Source: Oceanobacillus caeni (GTDB taxonomy: Bacteria > Bacillota > Bacilli > Bacillales > Amphibacillaceae). Taken from it: a stretch of DNA of 64,000 nucleotides. This document shows positions 27,106 to 47,272 of the stretch, one piece after another. The notes beneath the pieces were generated by a model that saw only the letters and a list, made by a program, of their open reading frames with translations, made no database searches and was not told the DNA's origin. The stretch is from assembly GCF_019037185.1 (NCBI RefSeq), contig NZ_JAHHXM010000011.1, positions 1-64,000 on the forward strand. The letters run 5' to 3'. Positions within the stretch are counted from its first letter, which is position 1. Each line of letters begins with the position of its first letter. Made by a program: the position numbers and the translations under genes.

Positions 27106-28569
27106 ATGCAAACGACTGAACAAAAGGTAGAGATTAAACCAATTAATTGTTCCCATTATATTGGAGGGAAATACGTAGAATCAAAAAGTGGAAAAACCTT
27201 TAAAAATATCAATCCTGCAACAGAGGAAGTTATAGGGTTAGTTGCGGAAGGAGGAAGAGAAGACGTTAATGAGGCGGTAGAAGCAGCGAGAAAGGCATTG
27301 AAAGGTGAATGGGGGAACATGCCAGTTCGCAAGCGTTCTGCTATTATCCGTAAAATTGGGGATTTAATTTTAGAAAGAAAACAAGAGTTAGCGACACTGG
27401 AAACATTAGATACCGGTAAACCAATATGGTTGTCAAACAGCGTTGATATTGAAAGAGCGGCATACAATTTTCATTTCTTCGCGGATTTTATGACAACAGT
27501 TGGCAATGAATCTTATCAACAGGATGATATTGCGATTCATTATTCTGTTCGTCGTCCAGTTGGAGTGGTTGGATTAATTAATCCTTGGAACCTACCATTA
27601 CTACTAATGACTTGGAAATTGGCTCCAGCACTTGCGGCGGGAAATACAGTAGTTATGAAACCATCAGAAGTAACACCAATGACAGCGACTGTTTTAGCAC
27701 AAATTTGTACAGATGCAGGTGTACCAGAAGGTGTGGTTAATATGGTACATGGTTTTGGAAATACAGGTGCCGCCCTTACATCTCATGATGATGTAGATGC
27801 CATTGCTTTTACCGGGGAGACGGTTACTGGTAGTGCCATTATGAAATCTGCTGCACCAACTTTGAAGAAATTATCTTTTGAATTAGGAGGAAAAAACCCA
27901 AATGTTATTTTTGCGGATGCAAATTTAGATGATGTAATTGAGACTACATTGAAATCAAGCTTCATCAACCAAGGGGAAGTGTGTCTTTGCGGGTCAAGAA
28001 TTTATGTAGAACGTGCTATCTATGATGAATTTTTAGAGCGTTTCGTTGCAAAAACAAAAGAATTAAAAGTTGGCGATCCCTTTGCTGAAGATACAAAAGT
28101 CGGAGCACTAGTAAGTGAGGAACATTATAATAAGGTGCTTAGCTACTTAGCTATTGCAAAAGAAGAGGGAGGTACCTTCTTAACTGGTGGTAAGAAAGCG
28201 GATATGGAAAAAGGTTTCTATGTAGAGCCAACGATTATAACCGGTTTGGGAAGAGATTCTCGTTGTGTACGTGAAGAAATCTTTGGTCCCGTTGTAACCG
28301 TTCTTCCATTCGATACAGAGGAAGAGGTCATGGAACAAGTTAATGATACGCATTACGGATTAAGTGCAAGTCTTTGGACTGGCGATGTAAAACGTACGGC
28401 AAGATTATCTGCACAAATTGAAGCGGGAATGGTATGGGTCAATACATGGTTCCTACGTGATTTACGTACCCCATTTGGTGGTGCGAAGCGTAGTGGAATT
28501 GGCCGTGAAGGTGGAGCACATAGTTTTGATTTCTATTCTGAAATAACGAATGTCACGCTAAAACTATAG
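27106..28569 (+). CDS. 2-Hydroxymuconic semialdehyde dehydrogenase, copy 2
   Basis: A 487-residue paralogue of the protein at 19346, collinear without gaps over most of its length. It has the same active site elements: GLINPWNLPLLL, ELGGKNPN and NQGEVCLCGSR. It oxidises 2-hydroxymuconate semialdehyde with NAD+. AGGGAGG precedes the ATG. It opens the lower-pathway operon, so this copy is the likelier main enzyme for catechol-type cleavage products. Division of labour between the two copies is not determined. Confidence 0.9.
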   Translation: MQTTEQKVEIKPINCSHYIGGKYVESKSGKTFKNINPATEEVIGLVAEGGREDVNEAVEAARKALKGEWGNMPVRKRSAIIRKIGDLILERKQELATLETLDTGKPIWLSNSVDIERAAYNFHFFADFMTTVGNESYQQDDIAIHYSVRRPVGVVGLINPWNLPLLLMTWKLAPALAAGNTVVMKPSEVTPMTATVLAQICTDAGVPEGVVNMVHGFGNTGAALTSHDDVDAIAFTGETVTGSAIMKSAAPTLKKLSFELGGKNPNVIFADANLDDVIETTLKSSFINQGEVCLCGSRIYVERAIYDEFLERFVAKTKELKVGDPFAEDTKVGALVSEEHYNKVLSYLAIAKEEGGTFLTGGKKADMEKGFYVEPTIITGLGRDSRCVREEIFGPVVTVLPFDTEEEVMEQVNDTHYGLSASLWTGDVKRTARLSAQIEAGMVWVNTWFLRDLRTPFGGAKRSGIGREGGAHSFDFYSEITNVTLKL

Positions 28570-28579
28570 GAGGATCCAG

Positions 28580-29374
28580 ATGAATATAGAAACGACAGCT
28601 AAAACAGAAAGTCATGTCAAACATTTAGCAAGTGCATGGAGTAATGGACAAGGGGTTCAGCCAATTACAGAGCTGGATCCTGACATTTCCATTGATGAAG
28701 CGTACCAAGTGCAATTGCACACGATTAACAGATATTTGCAAAATGGGAAACGTATTACAGGTAAAAAAATCGGATTAACTTCTAAAGCAGTCCAAGAAAT
28801 GCTTGGAGTTGGGGAACCGGATTATGGACATTTATTAGATGATATGCATGTGGAAAATAAAGGTACCGTACCTTTTAACCGTGTTCTTCAACCAAAAATT
28901 GAGGGCGAACTTGCTTTTATCTTAAAAGAAGATTTAGTTGGTCCAAATGTCACTTCTTTAGATGTGTTAAAAGCGACAGATGTCATTGTGCCAGCAATTG
29001 AAATCGTTGACAGTCGGATTAAAGACTGGAAAATCACTTTAGCAGATACGGTTGCCGACAATGCATCATCAGGACTTTATGTGCTTGGAGAAACATTTAA
29101 AAAACCGGCAAATTTAGATATTAAGCAAATTGGAATGGCTTTATATAAGAATGGCGAACTTCAAAACACGGGAGTTGGTGCGGCAGCATTAGGAGATCCT
29201 GCGAAATGTGTTGCTTGGTTGGCTAATAAACTAGCAAACTACGGGATTACGCTTAAAGCTGGTGAAGTTATTTTATCCGGAGCATTGTCTGCCATGGTAG
29301 AAGCAAAACCAGGCGATCATTTTTATGTGAAATTTGCTGAATTAGGTTCCGTGGAAGTTTCATTTTCAGAGTAA
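28580..29374 (+). CDS. 2-Hydroxypenta-2,4-dienoate (2-oxopent-4-enoate) hydratase
   Basis: Adds water to 2-hydroxypenta-2,4-dienoate to give 4-hydroxy-2-oxovalerate. The 264-residue protein belongs to the FAH-related hydratase/decarboxylase family with GKKIGLTSKAVQ, GHLLDDM, PKIEGELAFIL (metal-binding glutamates) and PAIEIVDSRIKDW. It is homologous to the protein at 31326; LTSKAVQEMLGVGEPDYGHL points to the hydratase (DmpE/PraE) branch. It starts ten bases after the dehydrogenase, behind AGGAGG. Confidence 0.82.
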   Translation: MNIETTAKTESHVKHLASAWSNGQGVQPITELDPDISIDEAYQVQLHTINRYLQNGKRITGKKIGLTSKAVQEMLGVGEPDYGHLLDDMHVENKGTVPFNRVLQPKIEGELAFILKEDLVGPNVTSLDVLKATDVIVPAIEIVDSRIKDWKITLADTVADNASSGLYVLGETFKKPANLDIKQIGMALYKNGELQNTGVGAAALGDPAKCVAWLANKLANYGITLKAGEVILSGALSAMVEAKPGDHFYVKFAELGSVEVSFSE

Positions 29375-29389
29375 AGAGGAGGGATGAAC

Positions 29390-30274
29390 ATGAGTAAAGT
29401 AAAAGTTGGAATTATCGGTTCTGGAAATATCGGATCCGATTTAATGGTGAAATTAAGAAAATCCGAATTACTAGAAGTTACAACCATGATGGGAATTGAT
29501 GCGACATCAAGAGGGATGAAACATGCGAAGGAAATCGGTTTGGAAGTGTTTGATAACGGGATAGACGGTTTACTAGATAATCCTAATTTAGTAGATATTA
29601 TTTTTGATGCGACAAGTGCTAAAGCGCATATCGCTAATGCGGAAGTGGCTAAAAAACTAGGAAAACAAATGATAGATTTAACCCCAGCTGCAATAGGCCC
29701 ATTTATCGTTCCAACAGTAAACCTAGGTTCTCATTTGGATGCAGATAATGTGAACCTCATTACTTGTGGAGGGCAAGCGACGATTCCTATTATCCATGCG
29801 ATTAATCAAGTGGCGCCAGTCGAGTATGGAGAAATTGTTGCAACGATTTCAAGTAAGAGTGCAGGCCCCGGTACACGAGCGAACATTGATGAATTCACCG
29901 AAACGACAGCAAAAGGGATTGAACAAGTAGGAGGGGCGAAAAGAGGAAAAGCAATTATTATACTAAACCCTGCCGAACCACCAATCATGATGCGTGATAC
30001 GGTTCATGCGATTGTAGATCCTAGGGCTGTTGATGAAAAGGCAATTACGGATTCTGTTGTACAAATGGCAGAAAGAGTACAGTCTTATGTTCCAGGATAT
30101 AAATTACGTACAGATCCAATTTTTGATGGAAATAAAGTAACCGTGTTCATAGAAGTGGAAGGTGCAGGACACTATCTACCGAAATATGCAGGGAACTTGG
30201 ATATTATGACATCTGCAGCAGTGAAAGTAGCGGAAGAATTTGCGAAAAGTAGATTGAACGTCACAACGAAATAA
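29390..30274 (+). CDS. Acetaldehyde dehydrogenase (acylating)
   Basis: Converts acetaldehyde, NAD+ and CoA to acetyl-CoA, channelled from the partner aldolase. The N-terminal Rossmann motif is [14 protein letters not shown] (residues 5-18); the catalytic Cys lies in [12 protein letters not shown] (about residue 127). The C-terminal [20 protein letters not shown] is family-typical. I use the second ATG (29390) because the first abuts GAGGAGGG. Length 294 matches the DmpF/BphJ/PraG family. Adjacent to its aldolase, as always in this pathway. Confidence 0.93.
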
Positions 30275-30295
30275 GTAGCGGGGAGGAGGATGAAT

Positions 30296-31306
30296 ATGTC
30301 CAATTTAAAAATTACAGAAGTTGCATTACGAGATGGAAGTCATGCGATTAGTCATCAGTTTACAGTAGAACAAGTAACATCCATTACGAAAGCGTTAAAT
30401 GAAGCACGTGTTCCTTATGTGGAAGTAACACATGGAGACGGACTTGGAGGATCTTCTTTACAATACGGGTTATCAAGGACGGACGAATTAAAATTAATCG
30501 AAGCAGCAGTTGGCGTTGCTGATTTTTCTAAGATTTCGGTATTGCTGTTACCGGGAATCGGTACTATTGAGGATCTAAAAGTTGCTGAAAATCTTGGAGC
30601 AAAAATGGTAAGGGTTGCAACTCATGTAACGGAGGCGGATGTTTCCAAGCAACATATTGAAACGGCAAAAGAATTAGGGATGGAAACAGTTGGATTTTTA
30701 ATGATGAGTCACATGGCACCAGTGGAAAAACTGGTAGAACAAGCGAAATTAATGGAAAGCTATGGTGCGGATGTCGTTTATGTAACCGACTCAGCTGGAG
30801 CACTACTTCCGCATGAGGTAAAAGAAAGAATCAAAGCACTCAAACAAGAGTTGTCTGTGGAAATTGGATTCCATGCTCATAACAACCTTTCCCTTGCGAT
30901 GGGGAATACATTAGCTGCAATTGAAGAGGGTGCTACCCGGATTGATGGTAGTGTTCGTTGCCTAGGAGCGGGTGCTGGGAATACTCAAACAGAAGTATTG
31001 GTGGCTGTTCTTGAAAAAATGGGAATTGATACGGGAATTGACCTTTACAAGATGATGGATCTTGCCGAAAATATCGTGGCACCGATTTTACCACAGCCAC
31101 AAGAAATTACAAAAAATAGTTTAACATTAGGCTTTGCGGGTGTTTATTCTAGTTTCCAAGTACATGCAAACCGTGCTGCAAAGAAATTCAACATTGACTC
31201 CCGCGATATTTTAGTAGAATTAGGAAAACGAGAAGTGGTCGGTGGACAGGAAGATATGATTATCGATGTTGCGGCGGAATTAGCGAAAGCAAAATCGTTG
31301 GTTTAA
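30296..31306 (+). CDS. 4-Hydroxy-2-oxovalerate aldolase
   Basis: Cleaves 4-hydroxy-2-oxovalerate to pyruvate and acetaldehyde. The 336 residues show the DmpG/HOA features: EVALRDGSHAISHQF (catalytic Arg-Asp at about 14-15), THGDGLGGSSLQYG, and metal ligands in FHAHNNLSLAMGN (about residues 197-209). The start is the second ATG (30296), six bases behind GGAGG. Forms a channelling complex with the upstream acetaldehyde dehydrogenase. Confidence 0.94.
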   Translation: MSNLKITEVALRDGSHAISHQFTVEQVTSITKALNEARVPYVEVTHGDGLGGSSLQYGLSRTDELKLIEAAVGVADFSKISVLLLPGIGTIEDLKVAENLGAKMVRVATHVTEADVSKQHIETAKELGMETVGFLMMSHMAPVEKLVEQAKLMESYGADVVYVTDSAGALLPHEVKERIKALKQELSVEIGFHAHNNLSLAMGNTLAAIEEGATRIDGSVRCLGAGAGNTQTEVLVAVLEKMGIDTGIDLYKMMDLAENIVAPILPQPQEITKNSLTLGFAGVYSSFQVHANRAAKKFNIDSRDILVELGKREVVGGQEDMIIDVAAELAKAKSLV

Positions 31307-31325
31307 TACAATCAGGAGGCTGAAA

Positions 31326-32126
31326 ATGGTTACTAAAATGGATACACATTTAATTAAGGAACTTGCGAATTATACACATGGCGCAGAAAAAGAAAAAAGA
31401 GAGATTACAAAAATTACTGCTGATTTGTACCCAGAGCTTTCAATTGAAGAGGCATATTTAGTCCAGGAAGAATTAGTAAGACAAAAGCTAGAAGAAGGAA
31501 AGAAAATTGTAGGACCGAAAATGGGTATTACGAGTGAAGCGAAAATGAAACAAATGAATGTAGATGATCCGATTTATGGTTATGTTTTTGATTACATGGT
31601 AGTTAATGAAGGGGATTCTATCTCGATATCAGACTACATTCATCCAAAAGTAGAGCCTGAGATTGGGTTTGTTTTATCAAGGGATTTGGAAGGTCCGAAT
31701 GTAACAGCATTAGATGTTCTTGCCGCAACAGAATATGTATTCCCAGCAATTGAGATTATTGATAGTCGCTATGAAAATTTTAACTTCACATTGCCAGACG
31801 TTATTGCAGATAATACATCTGCAGCAGGAGCGGTATTCGGTACCACTTTGAAAAGACCTGACAATTTGGAATTAGATGTAGTTGGTGTAACACTATCGAT
31901 AAACGGAGAAATCCAAGCTTTAGGTGCTGGTGCTGCAGTACTTGGTCACCCAGCTAATTCGGTTGCTAGACTAGCAAACATGTTAGCGAAAAAAGGGGAA
32001 AAAGTAATAGCGGGAGAGCCAATTTTAACAGGTGGACTTACAGCGGCTGTTATGTTATCTCCCGGAGATTTCGTAAATGTAAAAGTTGGTGGAATTGGTG
32101 ATGTTTCTTTCTTTGTGAAAGAATAA
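31326..32126 (+). CDS. 4-Oxalocrotonate (2-oxo-3-hexenedioate) decarboxylase
   Basis: Decarboxylates 2-oxo-3-hexenedioate to 2-hydroxypenta-2,4-dienoate. The 266-residue protein is a paralogue of the hydratase at 28580, with GPKMGITSEAKMKQM, PKVEPEIGFVL and PAIEIIDSRYENF; the MGITSEAKMKQMN sequence fits the decarboxylase (DmpH/PraD) branch. AGGAGG precedes the ATG. Decarboxylase and hydratase usually act as a complex. Confidence 0.85.
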   Translation: MVTKMDTHLIKELANYTHGAEKEKREITKITADLYPELSIEEAYLVQEELVRQKLEEGKKIVGPKMGITSEAKMKQMNVDDPIYGYVFDYMVVNEGDSISISDYIHPKVEPEIGFVLSRDLEGPNVTALDVLAATEYVFPAIEIIDSRYENFNFTLPDVIADNTSAAGAVFGTTLKRPDNLELDVVGVTLSINGEIQALGAGAAVLGHPANSVARLANMLAKKGEKVIAGEPILTGGLTAAVMLSPGDFVNVKVGGIGDVSFFVKE

Positions 32127-32153
32127 TTAACTATCAAGATAGGAGGGATTGAT

Positions 32154-32345
32154 TTGCCAATCGTTCAAATTTCTATTATGGAAGGTAGATCCCAAGAAAA
32201 AATTGATACTCTGTTGAAAAATGTAACCACTGCGGTAAGCGAATCACTGGATGCACCGAAAGAAAATGTTCGTGTTATTGTAACGGAAGTACCGAAAACA
32301 CATTGGGCTATAGGTGGTACAAGTGCTAAGAATTTAGGTAGGTAA
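32154..32345 (+). CDS. 4-Oxalocrotonate tautomerase
   Basis: Isomerises 2-hydroxymuconate to 2-oxo-3-hexenedioate. The 63 residues begin with PIVQISIMEGRSQEKID, so the catalytic proline is exposed at position 1 once Met is removed. Arg-11 (GRS) and the later Arg in VRVIVTEV are conserved. TTG start behind AGGAGGG. Last gene of the lower-pathway operon. Confidence 0.92.
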   Translation: MPIVQISIMEGRSQEKIDTLLKNVTTAVSESLDAPKENVRVIVTEVPKTHWAIGGTSAKNLGR

Positions 32346-32426
32346 TTAAGAGTGGTGAGGAGATTCTAATGTAGGGTCTCCTTTTACAATGAATGTCTGT
32401 AATTATTTGATAAAAATTTTTAGAAT

Positions 32427-32443
32427 GTTCCGCATAGGGGAAC
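32427..32443. promoter_or_regulatory. Predicted IclR-type operator, site 3
   Basis: GTTCCGCATAGGGGAAC has perfect 5-bp arms GTTCC / GGAAC. It lies 129 bases before the class I dioxygenase start. It differs from sites 1 and 2 at three positions. Confidence 0.68.
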
Positions 32444-32571
32444 TATTGGGTTTTTATTACTTGTTTATCCTTTATAATCGAATCAAGTAGTCTAATGATC
32501 TAGTAAAACTTTTGAAAACTAATGAAAACGTTACCAAATGGTTGAAATTTTATAATAAGGGGGAATTTAGA

Positions 32572-33558
32572 ATGGAAAAGGAATTGAAAAAGTTTGATGT
32601 TGCACAATTAGCTCATGTGGAAATCTTTACTCCAGATCCAGACGGTACTCTATGGTTCTTTAAAGAATTATTAGGGCTGCAAGAAACAGCTAGGGAAGGA
32701 CAGTCTGTTTATCTCCGTGGTTATGAAGACTTTTATCATCATACATTAAAAGTGACGGAAAGAAATGAGCCTGGTTTAGGTCATATTAGCTGGAGGGCTA
32801 GTTCTAAAGAAGCTTTAGAGAGACGTGTGAAGGAACTAGAGAAATCAGGAGCGGGTAAAGGTTGGATTGATGGTGACCTAGGTCATGGTGCAGCATATCA
32901 ATTCGTTACTCCTGACAACCATAACATGGAAATTCTTTGGGATGTTGATTATTTTCAACCGAATGAAAGTCAATTCACTGTATTAAATAACCGACCACAA
33001 AAACGCCCCCTTACAAGTGTTCCGGTGCGCAGACTTGATCATGTGAACTTAATGTCTAGTGATGTAACAAGAAATAAGGACTTTATGATGGATGAACTTG
33101 GTTTTAGATTAAGAGAGCATGTAGTAAGAAATGATGGGTCAGAAATTGGCTCTTGGTTAAGTGTTAGCCCGCTCGTTCATGAGTTGGCGTTTATGGGTGA
33201 TGCATCAACTTCAGAGCAAGGCCTTGGGAAACTTCACCATGTTGCATTCTGGTACGGATTTCCACAACATTTACACGATCTTTCGGAAGTACTTACTGAA
33301 AATAGAATTCAAATCGAAGCTGGTCCATTAAAACATGGGGTATCCCAAGCAATGTGTATGTATGTCATCGAACCAGGTGGTAACCGTGTTGAACTGTTCG
33401 GGGATTCTGGATATTTAATCTTTGATCCAGATTGGAAACCAGTAACGTGGGCAGAAGAGCAAGTAGAAAGAGCAATTATCTTCTATGGAGCCCCGTTACC
33501 AGATACGTATTTTAAATATGGAACTCCAAATGTGCAATCAACTGTGATTAATAAATAG
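32572..33558 (+). CDS. Class I extradiol dioxygenase, catechol 2,3-dioxygenase-like
   Basis: A 328-residue two-domain vicinal-oxygen-chelate dioxygenase. The three metal ligands are visible in the second domain: His in RLDHVNLM (about 159), His in [10 protein letters not shown] (about 222) and Glu in NRVELFGD (about 275). The C-terminal [11 protein letters not shown] resembles Bacillus/Geobacillus catechol 2,3-dioxygenases. I start at ATG 32572, behind AAGGGGGAA; the open frame extends 20 codons further without a site. It is a stand-alone unit with its own IclR-like box. Homoprotocatechuate dioxygenase is a possible alternative. Confidence 0.82.
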
Positions 33559-33698: not shown

Positions 33699-33725
33699 TA
33701 AACTTTGTTAAAACTCCACCGATAA
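33699..33725 (+). promoter_or_regulatory. SigD (flagellar) promoter of hag
   Basis: TAAA (33699-33702), a 15-base spacer and ACCGATAA (33718-33725) match the SigD consensus TAAA-N15-GCCGATAT closely. The predicted leader is about 185 bases. Confidence 0.85.
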
Positions 33726-33917: not shown

Positions 33918-34124
33918 ATGAGAATTAATCACAATATTGCGGCGCTTAATACTTATCGTCAGTTAGGTGCGGCAAACAATGCACAATCTAAATCAATGGA
34001 GAAATTATCTTCTGGGCTTCGTATTAATAGTGCAGCAGATGACGCAGCTGGTCTTGCAATCTCAGAAAAAATGCGTGGACAAATTCGAGGGTTAGATATG
34101 GCTGCTAAAAACTCTCAAGACGGT
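33918..34124 (+). CDS. hag: Flagellin Hag, exon 1
   Basis: The first 69 codons of flagellin, [20 protein letters not shown] through [11 protein letters not shown], which is the conserved D0/D1 N-terminal region. Without splicing the frame continues RLEMPL and stops. Joined to exon 2 at 34403 it gives an uninterrupted 271-residue flagellin. GGAGG precedes the ATG. It is driven by a SigD promoter. Secreted by the flagellar export system; it forms the filament. Confidence 0.93.
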
Positions 34125-34402
34125 AGACTAGAAATGCCGCTCTAAGTAGTAATACTTAGATAAACACTCCGTGAATTCGGTGGAACCCCAAACCAGCAAA
34201 TGCGGATGGTGGGCAATACCGAGCCAAGCCTAATGAATCGGTAGTTTGGTAATTAGGAAGGTGTGACGGTCAGGTGGTGAGGAACCGTACCAATAACCCA
34301 CCCACGAGCGCGGGGCACCCTGATTAGGGGTGAAGATATGACCTGAACTTTATGGAAACATAAAGAAGCAGAGGATAAAAAACCACTGCGATAACATAAT
34401 TG
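34125..34402 (+). other. Group I self-splicing intron in hag
   Basis: A 278-base insertion with group I hallmarks. Exon 1 ends in U (CGGU) and the intron ends in G. P1 forms between exon CGGU and internal guide GCCG (34136-34139), giving the required G-U pair at the splice site. P7 pairs GGTCA (34268-34272) with TGACC (34339-34343), the latter in the S-type element GAAGATATGACC. P9-like hairpins follow (CTTTATG/CATAAAG, GCAG/CTGC). There is no internal endonuclease gene. Excision joins GGT to ATT in phase 0. Group I introns are known in flagellin genes of some thermophilic Bacillus and Geobacillus. Confidence 0.9.
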
Positions 34403-35011
34403 ATTTCTCTAATCCAAACAGCTGAAGGTGCATTAAATGAAACGCACTCTATTCTTCAACGTATGCGTGAACTAGCTGTTCAAGGTGGAAATGATACTAA
34501 TGTATCAGCTGATCGAGGTGCTATTCAAGACGAATTAAATCAATTAATGTCTGAGATCGATAGAATCGCGGATACCACAGCATTCAATGGTCAAAACCTA
34601 TTGGGTGGGTCATTCTCAGGAACATTACAAATTGGAGCGAATTCCGGACAAGTTATTAATGTTGCGATCTCTGCCATGGGAGCTTCTGCTTTAAGTATGA
34701 CAACTGCTAATGTATCTGTTGGTACTAATGCTGCGGCAAGTACAGCTATTTCCCATATAGATAGTGCTATTGAAGCCGTATCTAAACAACGCTCACAACT
34801 AGGTGCTTTGCAAAATCGTTTAGACCATACTATTAATAACCTGAACACATCTTCTGAAAACTTAACTGCTGCAGAATCTCGTGTTCGTGATGTTGATATG
34901 GCAAAAGAAATGATGGAACAAACAAAAGCTTCTATCCTTGCACAAGCTTCTCAGGCAATGCTTGCGCAAGCTAATCAACAGCCACAAGGTGTCTTACAAT
35001 TACTTCGTTAA
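34403..35011 (+). CDS. hag: Flagellin Hag, exon 2
   Basis: The remaining 202 codons, beginning [20 protein letters not shown] and ending [21 protein letters not shown]. These are the conserved D1 and C-terminal D0 regions; the variable central domain is short. A TTG at 34400 could in principle start a fragment, but it lies inside the intron's last bases and has no ribosome binding site. The terminator at 35039 ends the transcript. Confidence 0.93.
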
Positions 35012-35105: not shown

Positions 35106-38100
35106 ATGAGACCATTTATTTCATTATGCATGATTGTAAAAAATGAAGAGAAAGTAATAGAACGCTGTTTATCCTCTATTTCTCGTTTAGTAGATGAAGT
35201 AGTTGTTGTAGATACTGGATCTACAGATAGAACTAAAGAAATAGTATCACGATATACATCAAAAATTTACGACTTTGAATGGATTAATGATTTTTCAGCT
35301 GCGCGAAATTATGCAGCTTCAAAAGCCGCAGGGGAGTGGATACTTGTATTAGATGCAGATGAGTATGTTGATGAGGAAAATTTTAAAGATTTTATTCTAA
35401 AGTTAAAAGAAGATAACGGTCAATATGACTCATACTTTGTCAAAATACTTAACTTTGCTGGAAGTTTTGGAGAAACTTTAGTTCAGAACTTTCATGATAG
35501 AATTTATAAAAATAACGGTGAAATTAGCTATTATCGAAAGATTCATGAACAATTTAAAACCAACTCAGGAAAACCATTGAAAAATAGTAAGTCCAATCTG
35601 TTAATTTTTCATTCGGGGTATTTAAAAAATACAGTTGTTGAAAAAGAAAAAAGACGGCGAAATAAAGAATTAATCGATAAGGAAATAAAATACGGAAGTA
35701 ATAAAGCATTTGATCACTTTAATATAGGAAATGAGTATTGTTCAATTGGTGAATATGAAAAGGCATTAGATGCATATCTAGCAGCCTATAAATTAAAAAA
35801 GGATTTTAGGTTGGCATGGGTATCTACTGCATTAATTCAAATTATTATATGTTTAATTAATCTAAAAAGATATAACGATGCATTAAATGTTATTGTGGAC
35901 GCTGAAAAAATTTATGCTAATTCCCCCGAATTTCCATGTTTAAAAGGTGAAATCTTCTTTTTGAGAGGGCAATTAGAGGATGCAAAATCTACTTTTCAGG
36001 AACTAATAGAGAATAATGAAAAATATCAGCATATTATTTTAAGACCCGATTTAAAAGACCAAAGGCCCCACCTACGTTTAGGGGAAATATTTCTTAACCA
36101 AGAAGAATATAATGGGGCAATTTACCATTTTACAAATGTATTAAATATAAATAATAACAATATAGAAAGTATTAATAAGGTAGTGTGCTTACTAAACAAA
36201 TTTCATACAGAAGATGAAATAGCAACCTTTTTAAAAACGAACAACCTAGTGAATGAGAATAATATTCAAATATATGTTAGAGCATGTTTTGATGTAGGTA
36301 ACCCTTCTTTAGCATTAAACTTACTTAAAGAATATACGGATAAATATAGACTATTACAAAAGGCTTCAATTCTTAAAAGACTATGTATTAGTAATGTAGG
36401 GGATATTGATGAAATAAACGGCATATTACAATCAGATGTTTTGGAGAAATTGTTAGAATCAAATTGGATTAATATTGTCGATATATTATTATTAAACGAT
36501 TATGTGTCTCAAGAATATGATTTAATACCCTTAATTAATTCTATGAAACAGAGTAAGCAGATTAGGGAATTAATGGATTTATTAGATGGTAATGAGTATC
36601 TCGTAAATCTTGATGAGAATTTAATCGTATATACATTACAGCAATTTTTTATTTATAAAAGATATGACTTGTGTAATGTAATTTTAGAGGACATAGAAAA
36701 AACTAATAAAGGAACAATTCTTAAAGTTGCTAGGATATTATTTTCTAATGAGTTTAAAGGAGAAGCTTTGCAACTATATGATTTATGTGATTGGGACAGA
36801 TTTAACGAGCAAGATTTTATAAATATAATTGATAGTTTAATAGAAACAAATGATAAAGAAAGTGTTTTAGAAGTAGCGAAATTAGCAATGGATACGTTTG
36901 AAGAGGATTTTCGTTTTTATAAGTATGTTTTGGAAAATACAATGGACAACTTTGTATTTAAAAAGGTTAGTGAAAAGGTAAATAAGATATTTACTCACAG
37001 TGAATATCTAAAAAATGTCACACTTACTAATGAAAAAAACTTAAAGGATGAGGAAAGCACTAAAATAATAATTACCGAACAAAATAAAATATTAGATGTA
37101 TTTTTGAAGTATATAGATAAGTATCTAATAAATCATTTTTCGCTAAAAAAGGATGAATTTACTGTTTGTTATCCGTATATTTCTTTTTTGAATAAAGATT
37201 GTGATTTTGCTAGTATTCAATTCCTGTTAGTGGTCGGTAACGATGTTAGAAAAAGTTCTACAATAGAGGTAGTAAAAGAAGAAGAACAATGGATTTTGCA
37301 AAATTTAAAAATGGACGGAGTAGATTATAAACAGAAAAAGATTATTCAGAAACAAAATTATATAACCAAGAAACCTAAAGTATTACTGGGGTATAGAGAT
37401 TATAGTGGTTGTAATACCCTTGCTTTATATAAATCAATACCATCATACATCACAGATAATTTTCAAATAGAATTTGTTAAAGCAGCGACAAATGAATTTA
37501 GTGAAAAGGCTCTAAAGAGTGACGTAATAGTAACAACAAATATGGAATTCAATCCTAAACAAATTTCTGATATTGGAGAAAAAATTATTATAGATACATG
37601 GCATGGCTTCCCATTAAAAAATATGTTTTATACTGATCCATATTATTTTTATAAAAATTCAATTGAACAATTTTGGAGCGAAGTTGATTTTTTGACATCA
37701 TATTCAAATTTGTATAGTAATACAATTAATAATTCAATTAAAGTAGATCCTGAAAAATATATAATTACTGGTTCACCCAGAAATGATTTTCTATTTAATC
37801 AGGACACTAGCAGGAAGTTACTGTTGGAATTATTAGGAAAAGAGGATAATGGACAAAGGTTTATATTTTATATGCCTACTTTTCGTAATGAGGATGTACA
37901 AAATTCTAATAGTTCTTCTAACCTTTTTGGTTTTAAAGATTTTAACCTAGATTCATTAGAAAATTTCTTGAATGTGAATAATTACGAACTAATAGTAAAA
38001 CTTCATCCTCTTTATAAAAAGAATCTTAGCGGCAATTTATTCAGTTATTCAAGAATAAGTATGTATCCTGAACATACAGCTTATAAGGAAACTACTGACC

Positions 38101-38435
38101 TTTATGAAGTTTTAAGTGCAACGGATATTTTAATTACAGACTATAGCTCAATTTACTTTGATTATTTATTATTGGATAAACCTATAGTTTTTGCTACACC
38201 AGACTTAGAACAGTATCAAGAAGAAAGAGGTTTTTGCCTTAAACCATTTGAAAATTGGACTCCGGGCCCTAAAGTTGTTACTCAGGAACAACTTCAATGT
38301 GAATTGATAAAATATGAAAAAGATAAAGATTACTATAGTTTATTCAGAAAAGAAATTAAAGATAAAGTTCATCAATATAAAGACGGGAAGTCTTCGGAAA
38401 GAGTATGGAAATTTATATCATCACTTTATTGTTAA
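35106..38435 (+). CDS. GT2-TPR-CDP-glycerol glycerophosphotransferase fusion
   Basis: A 1109-residue fusion. Residues 1-230 are a GT2 glycosyltransferase (FISLCMIVKNEEKVIERC, DTGSTDRTKEI, LDADEYVDEENF). Residues about 205-640 are helical TPR-like repeats (FDHFNIGNEYCSIGEYEKAL). The C-terminal 370 residues resemble TagB/TagF CDP-glycerol glycerophosphotransferases: DTWHGFPLKNMF, TGSPRNDFLF, YMPTFRNE, KLHPLYKKN, ITDYSSIYFDYLLLDKPIVFATPD. The start is ATG 35106 behind AGGAGGG. Directly downstream of hag and cytoplasmic by prediction, it probably modifies flagellin or another surface polymer; the target is inference. Codon use is more AT-rich than in the core region. Confidence 0.85.
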   Translation: MRPFISLCMIVKNEEKVIERCLSSISRLVDEVVVVDTGSTDRTKEIVSRYTSKIYDFEWINDFSAARNYAASKAAGEWILVLDADEYVDEENFKDFILKLKEDNGQYDSYFVKILNFAGSFGETLVQNFHDRIYKNNGEISYYRKIHEQFKTNSGKPLKNSKSNLLIFHSGYLKNTVVEKEKRRRNKELIDKEIKYGSNKAFDHFNIGNEYCSIGEYEKALDAYLAAYKLKKDFRLAWVSTALIQIIICLINLKRYNDALNVIVDAEKIYANSPEFPCLKGEIFFLRGQLEDAKSTFQELIENNEKYQHIILRPDLKDQRPHLRLGEIFLNQEEYNGAIYHFTNVLNINNNNIESINKVVCLLNKFHTEDEIATFLKTNNLVNENNIQIYVRACFDVGNPSLALNLLKEYTDKYRLLQKASILKRLCISNVGDIDEINGILQSDVLEKLLESNWINIVDILLLNDYVSQEYDLIPLINSMKQSKQIRELMDLLDGNEYLVNLDENLIVYTLQQFFIYKRYDLCNVILEDIEKTNKGTILKVARILFSNEFKGEALQLYDLCDWDRFNEQDFINIIDSLIETNDKESVLEVAKLAMDTFEEDFRFYKYVLENTMDNFVFKKVSEKVNKIFTHSEYLKNVTLTNEKNLKDEESTKIIITEQNKILDVFLKYIDKYLINHFSLKKDEFTVCYPYISFLNKDCDFASIQFLLVVGNDVRKSSTIEVVKEEEQWILQNLKMDGVDYKQKKIIQKQNYITKKPKVLLGYRDYSGCNTLALYKSIPSYITDNFQIEFVKAATNEFSEKALKSDVIVTTNMEFNPKQISDIGEKIIIDTWHGFPLKNMFYTDPYYFYKNSIEQFWSEVDFLTSYSNLYSNTINNSIKVDPEKYIITGSPRNDFLFNQDTSRKLLLELLGKEDNGQRFIFYMPTFRNEDVQNSNSSSNLFGFKDFNLDSLENFLNVNNYELIVKLHPLYKKNLSGNLFSYSRISMYPEHTAYKETTDLYEVLSATDILITDYSSIYFDYLLLDKPIVFATPDLEQYQEERGFCLKPFENWTPGPKVVTQEQLQCELIKYEKDKDYYSLFRKEIKDKVHQYKDGKSSERVWKFISSLYC

Positions 38436-38472
38436 ATAGAAAATCCGCTAATATTGTAATGGGGGAGTATAC

Positions 38473-39522
38473 GTGTATGAACCAATGGTGAGCATAATTG
38501 TACCAATCTATAACGTAGAAGAATACCTAGAAGAAACTTTAAAATCTTTAGTGGAACAGACTTATAATAATGTTGAAATTATATTAGTTGATGATGCATC
38601 CACCGATAAGTCACTTCAAATTGCTTCGCATTTTGCTGAAGTTTATAGAAATATTAAAGTAATCGGTCAAACTTTTAATAGGGGTGTTTCGGTTGCAAGA
38701 AATACTGGATTAGACTTAGCCAATGGATCATATATAATGTTTGTTGATTCAGATGATTTACTTAGTAAGAATGCTGTTCAAATCATGATGGGAATTGTAA
38801 GTAAATATAGTGCGGATTTAGTTTTGGGAATGTATAAGAACTTTAATGACAATGGGATGTATTTACCTGCTATTTTCCAAAGTTATGTGGATTTATCTGA
38901 AGGTATTAGGGTATTTGACTATATAAACACAGAGTTATTTTCGAATGTATATACCTGGGGAAAGTTATATAAAAAAGAGTTGATTGAAAACCTCTATTTT
39001 CCTGAAAATATTAACTATAATGAGGATATACCTTTTTCAATGTATACCTATCTATATGCAAATAAAATTTATTTAGCCCCTACAACTACATATTTTTACA
39101 GAATAAGACAGCAATATGATTCTCTTTCGCTTATAGCTCCAAAAAACCCAATCTCTTCATTGAATGATATCTTTGCATCTTTTAAGGTTGGTATGGAGTA
39201 TTTTGAATCATTTGATGATAAGAAATATTTGTTAGAAATATATATTAGTAGAGTAGTGGCTGGAAGTATCAAATATATATTTGAGGGTGCCTTACAAACA
39301 AAAGATGCACTTGTACATAAAAAAGTTTTAGAGCATCTTATTAACTGGATTAAAAGTCTCAATCCCACGATAGTTTATAATCAAAGCTTTCGAAAAGTAT
39401 TTGTAGAGAATGGGGGACAGTATCTTAATCTGATTGATAATACTTCGGCAAAATTATATATTGAATTATTAAGGATAATTAAATTCAAGATGCAGACAGT
39501 TTTTGAACAGAAAAATATATGA
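38473..39522 (+). CDS. Family 2 glycosyltransferase
   Basis: A 349-residue GT2 enzyme. The GT-A fold motifs are in the first 110 residues: VSIIVPIYNVEEYLEETL, DDASTDKS and FVDSDDLLS (the DxD metal/nucleotide-sugar site). GTG start with GGGGGAG five bases upstream. It follows the fusion glycosyltransferase by 37 bases and likely shares its transcript, making a two-gene glycosylation unit beside hag. The sugar donor cannot be told from sequence. Confidence 0.88.
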   Translation: MYEPMVSIIVPIYNVEEYLEETLKSLVEQTYNNVEIILVDDASTDKSLQIASHFAEVYRNIKVIGQTFNRGVSVARNTGLDLANGSYIMFVDSDDLLSKNAVQIMMGIVSKYSADLVLGMYKNFNDNGMYLPAIFQSYVDLSEGIRVFDYINTELFSNVYTWGKLYKKELIENLYFPENINYNEDIPFSMYTYLYANKIYLAPTTTYFYRIRQQYDSLSLIAPKNPISSLNDIFASFKVGMEYFESFDDKKYLLEIYISRVVAGSIKYIFEGALQTKDALVHKKVLEHLINWIKSLNPTIVYNQSFRKVFVENGGQYLNLIDNTSAKLYIELLRIIKFKMQTVFEQKNI

Positions 39523-39543
39523 ATGTTATGAAGCATAACATTT
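39522..39543 (+). terminator. Hairpin after the glycosyltransferase genes
   Basis: AATGTTATG and CATAACATT form a perfect stem with an AAG loop directly after the stop codon. The T-run is short, so termination may be weak. Confidence 0.5.
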
Positions 39544-39595
39544 AAAGGATTCGATGATATGGTTCTTCGAAAAATCATCAATTTCAAGATTTTGT

Positions 39596-39978
39596 ATTCG
39601 TGATGTTGACTGTACTTTGGTAAACATAGAACAATGACAGCACAGTATCCTTGCTGGTAATGGCTAGTGATTATTAAGCTCCTATCCCAAAAAGATGGGG
39701 AAGGTTCAACGACTAGGATAGACCATCTAAGGCGTAAGCTGCGATGATGAAATCCATAGGTGAAACAATGGTTATCAGCATTGTGAATACGAAGTGCCCG
39801 CCCCCTAGGTTGCTAGAGGGTGAAGATATAGTCTGGTCATTTGTGAAAGTAAATATTCGCACGATGGCGAAATAAATGATGGAACAAACTAAAAATTCAA
39901 TTCTTGGTCAAGCAGTAAGCAATGTTGGCCCAATCTAATCAGATGTCTCAAGGAGTATTACAACTCTTGAGATATTGA
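39596..39978 (+). pseudogene. Decayed flagellin 3' end, relic A, interrupted by a group I intron
   Basis: The flanks of the intron at 39611 read as the flagellin C-terminus. Upstream is CGTGATGTTGAC (RDVD). Downstream is MAK, a TAA in place of the Glu codon, then MMEQTKNSILGQAVS, a two-base deletion, and [18 protein letters not shown]. Only the last ~50 codons remain; the N-terminus is missing. The nonsense codon and frameshift show it is no longer functional. Confidence 0.85.
39611..39863 (+). other. Group I intron in flagellin relic A
   Basis: About 253 bases. P7 pairs GACTA (39711-39715, in the R-type element TTCAACGACTAGGA) with TAGTC (39829-39833, in the S-type GAAGATATAGTC). A P1-like pairing joins exon GTTGACT with internal GGTAAAC (one mismatch), with U-G at the junction. 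The last base is G at 39863 if the exon resumes ATGGCGAAA. The splice point is uncertain by one base because the exon has decayed. Confidence 0.82.
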
Positions 39979-39984
39979 TTAGAA

Positions 39985-40300
39985 GGGTGTCTAGCTTGAT
40001 AATGACTAGAGTATAACTGGGTGAATTGCTGAAACTTCCTAAAGCTTTATCAACCACAACGTACTGGAAACGGTCAGCGTGAAGGTCTTAAAATAATAAA
40101 AATGAAACAATGGATAATTAGCAGTCAAGCTTCTATGAGGAAATTCTGGAGAAGGTCCAACGACTAAAGAAGTACGGTCTAAGCCAAAAAGCTATGACTA
40201 TGAATCTCGTAGGGCAGTGAAAACTGTTCAAAGTGCCTAGCTCCATGGAAAACGTGGATGAAGATATAGTCTATTCTGTAACCAAAAAGAACAGCGCAAA
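39985..40300 (+). other. Group I intron in flagellin relic B
   Basis: About 300 bases. P7 pairs GACTA (40162-40166, in TCCAACGACTAAAG) with TAGTC (40267-40271, in GAAGATATAGTC). P4-type pairing joins TTGCTGAAAC (P element near 40024) with TTAGCAGTCAAG (Q element near 40118). The 5' boundary is not resolved because no clear flagellin exon precedes it; the 3' end lies near 40295-40300. There is no internal reading frame for an endonuclease. Confidence 0.78.
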
Positions 40301-40346
40301 GCAAGCCAACCAATTACCATAAGGAGTTTTACAACTTCTTCGTTAA
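40300..40346 (+). pseudogene. Decayed flagellin 3' end, relic B
   Basis: Just after the intron, CAAGCCAACCAATTACCATAA and the following bases read QANQLP, a stop, then GVLQLLR and a final stop. This is the flagellin C-terminus ([14 protein letters not shown]) with Gln changed to a stop. It is followed by a proper terminator. Confidence 0.82.
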
Positions 40347-46271: not shown

Positions 46272-47072
46272 TTAATGCTGGCAGTTGTTACAAAAGTATG
46301 TTTTTCGTGACGAGATTTCTTTTTGGACAATGGGCGCATGACATCGTGGACATGCTTCTCCTTCCCGGTTATGAACGAACATTTGATAACCACCTGTTTT
46401 ATTATCTTCCTTATAAAGGGGATCCATGTACCCACCTTGCTGGATGCCAAGGTGAAGAATATATCGCATTGACTCGTATAGGTTGTTAATCTGAGCTACA
46501 TCTAAATCTGGTATGTTTTTATCTGGCAATAATTGTGCATGCCAAAGAATTTCATCGGAGTAACGATTTCCGATACCGGCTATAAACTCCTGATTTAGCA
46601 GTGCAGATTTTAGTTTGCCTCTTTTTTTATTCATCATGTCCCTAAATGAATCCAAAGAAAAATTAGGATTAAGTGGTTCAAATCCAATGTCTTGAAATTC
46701 CTGGTCAACCATTTCTTGTGATAAAAGATGCAAGTAACCAAGCCTAAGACCTATAAAATAAAGATGCTGATTTCCAAAAGATAACCGCACTTGTACCGTC
46801 CGATCTGGCTTATCATGTCCATCTCCGTAGAACATTTTTCCACCTAGCATAAGATGTAAAAGTAAACATGACCCATTTTGAAGCTTAAATATTAAATACT
46901 TTGCCCGTCTTTGAATGGTTTCTAATTTCTGGTTTTCTACTTGAGCTTTAAATTGGTTGATTGGAACATTAATGGATTTTTCGCGATTAATCGTTACTTC
47001 TGCGATCTTTTTGCCGCCAATTAATGGTTGTAGTAAAGATTTGTACGTTTCCATCTCGGGTAATTCTGGCAT
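46272..47072 (-). CDS. Formamidopyrimidine-DNA glycosylase-like protein (Fpg/Nei family)
   Basis: A DNA glycosylase/AP lyase removing oxidised bases. The catalytic N-terminus PELPEMETYKSLL exposes Pro-2 and Glu-3. The helix-two-turns-helix is LLNQEFIAGIGNRYSDEILWHA, and a C-terminal zinc finger CPRCHAPIV ... YFCNNCQ closes the 266 residues. The divergence from standard MutM (PELPEMET rather than PELPEVET) suggests it is an extra paralogue rather than the housekeeping mutM. Operon with nfo. Confidence 0.87.
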   Translation of the reverse strand: MPELPEMETYKSLLQPLIGGKKIAEVTINREKSINVPINQFKAQVENQKLETIQRRAKYLIFKLQNGSCLLLHLMLGGKMFYGDGHDKPDRTVQVRLSFGNQHLYFIGLRLGYLHLLSQEMVDQEFQDIGFEPLNPNFSLDSFRDMMNKKRGKLKSALLNQEFIAGIGNRYSDEILWHAQLLPDKNIPDLDVAQINNLYESMRYILHLGIQQGGYMDPLYKEDNKTGGYQMFVHNREGEACPRCHAPIVQKEISSRKTYFCNNCQH

Positions 47073-47129
47073 AATCGGACTCCTCCAACATTTTGTGTAC
47101 TACCATTATTCCCTCGATATGGATAAGTT

Positions 47130-47272
47130 ATGAGTGGACCTAATCGCGAAAAGACAACTCTAGCTAGACTCCATTTTTGGTTGCATAATATTGGTTTGTC
47201 AGTCATGATGATTGCCATTGGTTTAGCTATTGCAGGTGTAAGCCCGATACTTTTATCGATAAGCAAAATCCA
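47130..47272 (+). pseudogene. Fragment resembling haem-copper oxidase subunit I
   Basis: A short open frame reads MSGPNREKTTLARLHFWLHN and continues IGLSVMMIAIGLAIAG. The LHFWLHNIG segment resembles cbb3/NorB-type oxidase subunit I. It then runs into the Rpn-family relic. Only about 46 codons, no neighbours of that pathway, so a relic at best. Confidence 0.35.

Follow-up and report, generated by a model that had tools for sequence, protein, structure and literature searches.

A predicted group IA intron in the flagellin gene of Oceanobacillus caeni, and flagellin introns with coding tails at two further sites

We consider the flagellin gene in a 64,000-nt stretch of Oceanobacillus caeni DNA (hereafter the window), whose coding sequence is divided by the 278 nt at positions 34125 to 34402 (intron A). 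The sequence comparisons given below make it very likely that these 278 nt are a small group IA intron in the one flagellin gene that the genome search returns, and that they would splice themselves out of its transcript. Intron A belongs to an already known kind of flagellin intron; the less expected part is the coding tails of the introns at two further sites of the gene, B and C. The features of the live gene are as follows.

33699-33725, + strand: sigma-D-like promoter TAAA-N15-ACCGATAA, upstream of flagellin (pattern match)
33918-34124, + strand: flagellin 5' exon, codons 1-69, ending NSQDG (sequence reading, joined translation)
34125-34402, + strand: predicted group IA intron at site A, 278 nt (RF00028 match and structure counts)
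34403-35011, + strand: flagellin 3' exon, codons 70-271 and stop (joined translation, Pfam, NCBIfam)

The interrupted gene and its intron

The flagellin frame (33918-35011) starts with the ATG at 33918, has its stop codon at 35009-35011, and is interrupted in phase 0, after the Gly codon 69 and before the Ile codon 70. At the 5' junction the exon ends in ...GACGGU, with U at 34124, and the intron starts with AGACUAG at 34125. At the 3' junction the intron ends in ...AAUUG, its terminal G34402 being omega-G, and the 3' exon begins AUUUCUCUA. The initial annotation had proposed that removal of the 278 bases yields a complete flagellin of 271 residues, and this is borne out: the joined frame is open and full-length, matches Flagellin_N (170.9 bits) and Flagellin_C (104 bits) in Pfam, and scores 373.2 bits as NCBIfam 'flagellin Hag' (cut-off 352).

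In the genome, which is 99.86% complete, the PF00669 matches are confined to the two halves of this gene and to one other protein, FlgL (identified by TIGR02550 with 312.3 bits over 127.2), and no second flagellin gene is found by this domain. The sigma-D-like pattern upstream, called with a consensus that we take to be the one for such promoters, has one match in the 64-kb window against 0.06 expected, with one or more matches in 6 of 100 shuffles. This promoter-like motif and the sole flagellin gene found would fit with an expressed gene. Because no other flagellin is found in the genome, a motile cell would very probably need splicing to make its flagellin; motility would then read out ribozyme splicing, which makes the gene a clean test case.

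The covariance model of group I introns (Rfam RF00028) gives 58.5 bits on intron A (E 6.2e-14, cut-off 50) in a 1.4-kb local search, the match running from 34115 to 34365 over model positions 1-253, which is full length, and again 58.5 bits when the intron's own genome is searched. The group I intron that had been placed inside the flagellin gene thus returns the expected covariance hit, with exact ends. A scan of all 64 kb at the Rfam gathering threshold lists no match, intron A included, which we attribute to the faster filters used there; since the local match is full-length, this miss is not taken as absence. The minimum free energy of intron A has a z-score of -2.55, with 2 of 100 shuffles equally or more stable.

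The frame that enters the intron reads RLEMPL and meets a stop as its seventh codon; in the 25 introns compared below the in-frame extension is mostly [R/K]LEMPL and a stop, with at most six codons. An early in-frame stop is usual in group I introns (PMC3073962).

The same interruption could be read as two genes, the first ORF giving an N-terminal peptide and translation restarting at the TTG of a 203-aa ORF that the ORF list places at 34400-35011. This TTG, however, straddles the 3' end of the intron, and other species too have a ribozyme at this junction, which leaves such a restart a negligible probability. To an IStron (a group I ribozyme fused to an IS605-type transposase), a transposon insertion or an assembly artefact we likewise give almost no credence. 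These are a general possibility only, and against them stand the length of 278 nt, the window ORF list, which has no ORF of at least 90 aa inside the intron that could encode a transposase or a homing endonuclease, and the occupation of the same site in many separately assembled species. Intron A is also single-copy in the genome (the three other blast places are of at most 36 nt, E >= 0.13). Plasmid records give no match to it.

Fold, covariation and proposed splicing

We compare 25 distinct introns, chosen by GACGG, the end G/AUUUC (a slash marks a splice junction) and a 17-base core stretch, the terminal G thus being demanded at extraction. The rows left out are L110 and L140, which are cut by the locus end, and L117 and L123, which are not flagellin. 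The named structure has 70 pairs in P1, P10, P2, P3, P4, P5, P5a, P6, P6a, P7, P7.1, P8, P9 and P9.1, with these main elements:

34121-34125 with 34135-34139, + strand: P1, exon CGGU plus A with UGCCG (25/25 introns, invariant)
34130-34134 with 34404-34408, + strand: P10, AGAAA with 3' exon UUUCU (94.4% of cells paired)
34167-34171 with 34311-34315, + strand: P3 (100% of cells paired; one-sided variation in two pairs)
34177-34262, + strand: P4-P5-P6-P6a domain (two P6a pairs with both-side changes)
34268-34272 with 34339-34343, + strand: P7, the G-binding helix, GGUCA with UGACC (covariation)
34273-34277 with 34298-34302, + strand: P7.1, GGUGG with CCACC (100% of cells paired)
34316-34319 with 34329-34332, + strand: P8 (one pair CG in 8/25, UA in 17/25)
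34348-34365, + strand: P9 (named structure)
34368-34389, + strand: P9.1 (three pairs with both-side changes)

Over the 25 introns, 99.1% of the 1750 cells form standard pairs, compared with 36.6-45.9% in slid-partner controls. Both-side changes are found in 13 pairs versus 6.3 in shuffles, with none of 500 shuffles as high; the number of further pair types shows no excess over shuffles in the same 25 introns (475/500 as high). The junctions common to all 25 are CAAGACGGU/A ... G/AUUUC, and intron A has a mean column identity of 87% across hosts.

The covariation is spread over several helices. In P7 one pair is GC in 11 and AU in 14 of the 25 introns and another is UA in 24 and CG in one, so that two of the five pairs have both-side changes. 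P7.1 has one compensated pair (AU in 4/25), and compensation is also present in P2. P7.1 lies between the 5' strand of P7 and the 3' strand of P3, a position that we take to mark subgroup IA, and intron A is therefore placed in that subgroup. P1, P4, P5 and P6 are invariant in the 25 introns and lend no covariation support; part of this invariance comes from the selection of introns with an exact core and fixed junction letters, as in P1, where GACGG was demanded. The U.G pair at the 5' splice site (U34124.G34136) is present in 25/25. In P10 no pair has both-side changes among the 25, its inner pairs are broken in single introns, and its outer pair is broken in 4/25. The splice-site rules, the P1 pairing of CGGU with GCCG and the P7 pairing of GGUCA with UGACC, as first traced by reading the intron, are thus all present, and P7 covaries.

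According to this structure, the RNA of 34125-34402 would fold into the standard group I core, in which the guide AGAAAU-GCCG would pair first with the 5' exon (P1, CGGU/A, with the U.G wobble) and subsequently with UUUCU of the 3' exon (P10). A guanosine bound in P7 would attack after U34124 and the freed 5' exon would attack after G34402, and the joined mRNA would encode the 271-aa Hag flagellin. The stop seven codons into the intron would keep ribosomes out of the core, and an unspliced mRNA would give a 75-residue N-terminal fragment only.

Further downstream the window holds decayed flagellin exons and introns (see the last section), that is, loss happens in this locus, and one may ask whether intron A is itself decayed and dead for splicing, the gene being a pseudogene and the cell non-motile or supplied with another flagellin. 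Both exons, however, are intact and together exceed the Hag cut-off, 24 other introns share its core helices and both its junctions, and the genome search finds no other flagellin, which makes this very improbable. A self-splicing intron A remains the reading that we carry forward.

Site A in other genomes and related elements

We turn to the other hosts of the intron. RF00028 finds group I introns in 44 of the 78 genomes searched, the own genome included. In a collection with one named genome per species, a 19-base core pattern occurs in 22 stretches, 20 of which have their 5' junction at flagellin codon 69; nine further loci, detected with RF00028 and located by tblastn, have the same codon-69 break. 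The hosts of site A include Oceanobacillus, Ornithinibacillus, Virgibacillus, Aquibacillus and Cerasibacillus as well as Fredinandcohnia, Peribacillus, Sutcliffiella and Bacillus. At least 13 of the 159 genomes in the family of the window have the core pattern, own included; only exact matches count here, hence the lower bound. Single genes with introns at all three sites are found, for example, in Fredinandcohnia onubensis (L122), Ornithinibacillus californiensis (L116) and Oceanobacillus damuensis (L109). The two exceptions among the 22 stretches (L117 and L123) are contigs of a Smithella and a Woesebacteria MAG, which have the 19-base core pattern and no flagellin match; the Smithella stretch has a different group I intron core.

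Hayakawa and Ishizuka reportedly described group I introns in the flagellin genes of Geobacillus stearothermophilus and thermophilic Bacillus in 2009 and 2012. Intron A resembles these in being a group I intron in a flagellin gene of Bacillales, but the site A hosts named here are not Geobacillus. It is also like the group IA members of RF00028 in its full-length match, P7.1, U.G 5' site and omega-G, and differs in being small, without room for a homing endonuclease. Temperature-dependent splicing of the flagellin group I introns of thermophilic Bacillus and Geobacillus is cited in two papers (PMC3984707, PMC4853749), and the latter assigns the intron of Geobacillus stearothermophilus and thermophilic Bacillus to IA2.

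A real intron A could, by such temperature dependence (cited in PMC4853749), be a switch that responds to temperature or salt and restricts flagellin under some conditions, and its place in the only flagellin gene found would suit this role. We consider such a switch unlikely, since the intron is 87% identical (column mean) across hosts that differ in salt habit, as judged by their names, and the core pattern is present in only 13 or more of the 159 family genomes. None of the features noted in the intron sequence points to sensing.

The last third of intron A matches 3 of 50,697 phage records (79.7-86.7% over 60-69 nt), and the stretch with intron C matches 58, of which 49 are Staphylococcus phages; no record of the 50,697 covers 80% of the intron A or intron C query. 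The phage likeness (Staphylococcus phages, Lactobacillus phage JCL1032) consists of partial matches, compared as sequence only, and would be in keeping with an origin of the A and C ribozymes in phages.

Flagellin introns B and C and their relics in the window

About 5 kb downstream of the live flagellin gene, positions 39596-40346 are, by their sequence, the remains of a defunct flagellin 3' end, interrupted by two decayed group I introns:

39596-39610, + strand: relic flagellin exon IRDVD (read by eye)
39611-39863, + strand: degenerate intron of site B type, 253 nt (RF00028 below cut-off; 5' end by eye)
39864-39930, + strand: relic exon MAK-stop-MMEQTKNSILGQ..., with the internal stop (sequence reading)
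39931-40301, + strand: degenerate intron of site C type, with a 15-residue in-frame stretch at its start (RF00028 below cut-off)
40302-40346, + strand: relic last exon QANQLP-stop-GVLQLLR-stop (sequence reading)

RF00028 scores the site B relic at 33.5 bits (39517-39855) and the site C relic at 42.6 bits (39966-40289), both below the cut-off. Intact B introns have 357-386 nt (n=36), compared with the 253 nt of the relic. Between the live gene and the relic (35106-39519) lie a 1109-aa protein, with Pfam matches to glycosyltransferase, TPR and CDP-glycerol glycerophosphotransferase, and a family-2 glycosyltransferase (Pfam); these proteins are perhaps for flagellin glycosylation, judging by their domains.

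Site B is RDVD/MAK, and its 3' signature occurs in 33 of the 159 family genomes, the window relic counted. The B sequences are drawn from 30 of the 38 family places and from earlier and order-level loci; places without a recognised 5' exon (L111, L178 twice, L179 and any such order-level places) and the window relic are left out. In 50 distinct introns the B intron adds 5 or 6 residues to the truncated frame, namely YALAA (20), YDLAAA (8), YDLAA (4), HTEAA (3) or one of twelve less frequent forms. Alanine is the last residue in 49/50 and the penultimate one in 48/50; the tail ends in LAA or LAAA in 35 of the 50, with 15 lacking this end. The pN/pS of the tails is 0.494 over five codons and 0.261 over the last two. 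Part of the tail is, by eye, able to pair as an RNA stem, and its bases may therefore be constrained for another reason.

These endings resemble tmRNA tags. Of 30 tmRNA loci listed, 22 were put through ARAGORN, which gives a tag for 19 of the 22, with an LAA or LAAA end in all 19; the tag of the window's own genome is GKSYNQPALAAA. When B tail and tmRNA tag are compared by eye within each genome, there is a general resemblance and no strict one-to-one match. We put the chances at about even that the B tail acts as a tmRNA-tag-like degron, by which truncated flagellin from unspliced mRNA would pass to ClpXP. If it does, the intron would limit the harm of its own splicing failures, the failed product being marked for destruction.

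The tmRNA of the own genome is itself of note. A group I intron of 47.5 bits, just under the cut-off, lies at C66:46612-46886 on the minus strand (L008 2613-2887), appears to interrupt tmRNA (ssrA) near its 3' end, with the tag at L008 3137, and adjoins an ORF resembling smpB. ARAGORN finds no tmRNA at this locus, and RF00023 matches 46875-47217. A tmRNA intron of such a kind is known from clostridia.

Site C is MLA/QANQ. Its 3' signature occurs in 35 of the 159 family genomes, the window relic counted; across the order it is found in 67 of 397 genomes, spread over 36 of the 135 genera. The C sequences are drawn from 30 of the 36 family places, 30 of the 76 order places and earlier loci, with two places of one genome (L135, L166) left out. 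An in-frame, 14-residue copy of the C-terminus encoded by the 3' exon is present in 62 of the 66 distinct C introns, and in 60 of these 62 its last residue equals that of the 3' exon. The four without a copy are the window relic and L073 (both decayed), the second gene of L044, and L069; the latter two have an intact 3' exon and should therefore need splicing. The C intron of this second L044 flagellin has the in-frame tail QFEQIAA before its stop, ending in AA.

Codons 6-13 of the intron-coded copy have a pN/pS of 0.081, versus 0.605 and 4.302 in the other frames; the neighbouring non-coding stretch has 0.446-0.951 and the true 3' exon 0.111. These figures are descriptive, because the sequences share descent. 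Both flagellin endings, intron-coded and 3' exon, look to be under selection as protein on these counts. Unspliced and spliced mRNA alike would thus encode a complete flagellin by virtue of the copy, which we regard as likely. Gene finders could overlook an intron C, since the unspliced frame is already complete.

The 5' site of intron C is set at GCU/CAA on account of a tendency of the copy's opening bases to pair with those immediately preceding the conserved GGGCGUC guide. The 5'-site helix scores at least 6 with the own intron in 30 of 44 cases versus 464 of 1892 swapped partners, a quarter of the swapped-partner helices thus also scoring at this level, and the comparison gives moderate support to this predicted site. 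A pairing of the 5' site of intron C with GACGUU of the site-B exon (exon skipping) had been considered by eye and is dropped, because the frame fails and the extended P1 puts the 5' site at GCU/CAA.

Some mobile elements restore the 3' end of the gene that they enter, as do a fungal mitochondrial atp6 element and tRNA-gene integrases. Intron C is like these in replacing the displaced coding end, and unlike them in that its copy lies near the ribozyme P1 and the coding end it displaces persists as a 3' exon, itself apparently under selection. No description of flagellin introns with C-terminal copies or degron tails appears among the literature matches listed, in which subscription journals are thinly covered. 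The combined proposal, in which the C copy would keep flagellin complete, the B tail would be a ClpXP degron (two opposite ways of dealing with unspliced mRNA) and the flagellin genes of Bacillales a hotspot with at least three fixed group I intron sites, has in our view slightly less than an even chance. The pattern is relevant to the question of how self-splicing introns survive in strongly expressed bacterial genes, where transcription and translation are coupled.

Two further observations are recorded. In one genome (G048, contigs C5 and C34; L047, L048), flagellin copies on short contigs or contig ends are each followed by an intron C of identical sequence. Upstream of the live flagellin gene, the window at 27106-33558 has ORFs that, by reading only, look like a catechol meta-cleavage cluster (dehydrogenase, hydratase/decarboxylase, aldolase and dioxygenase types).
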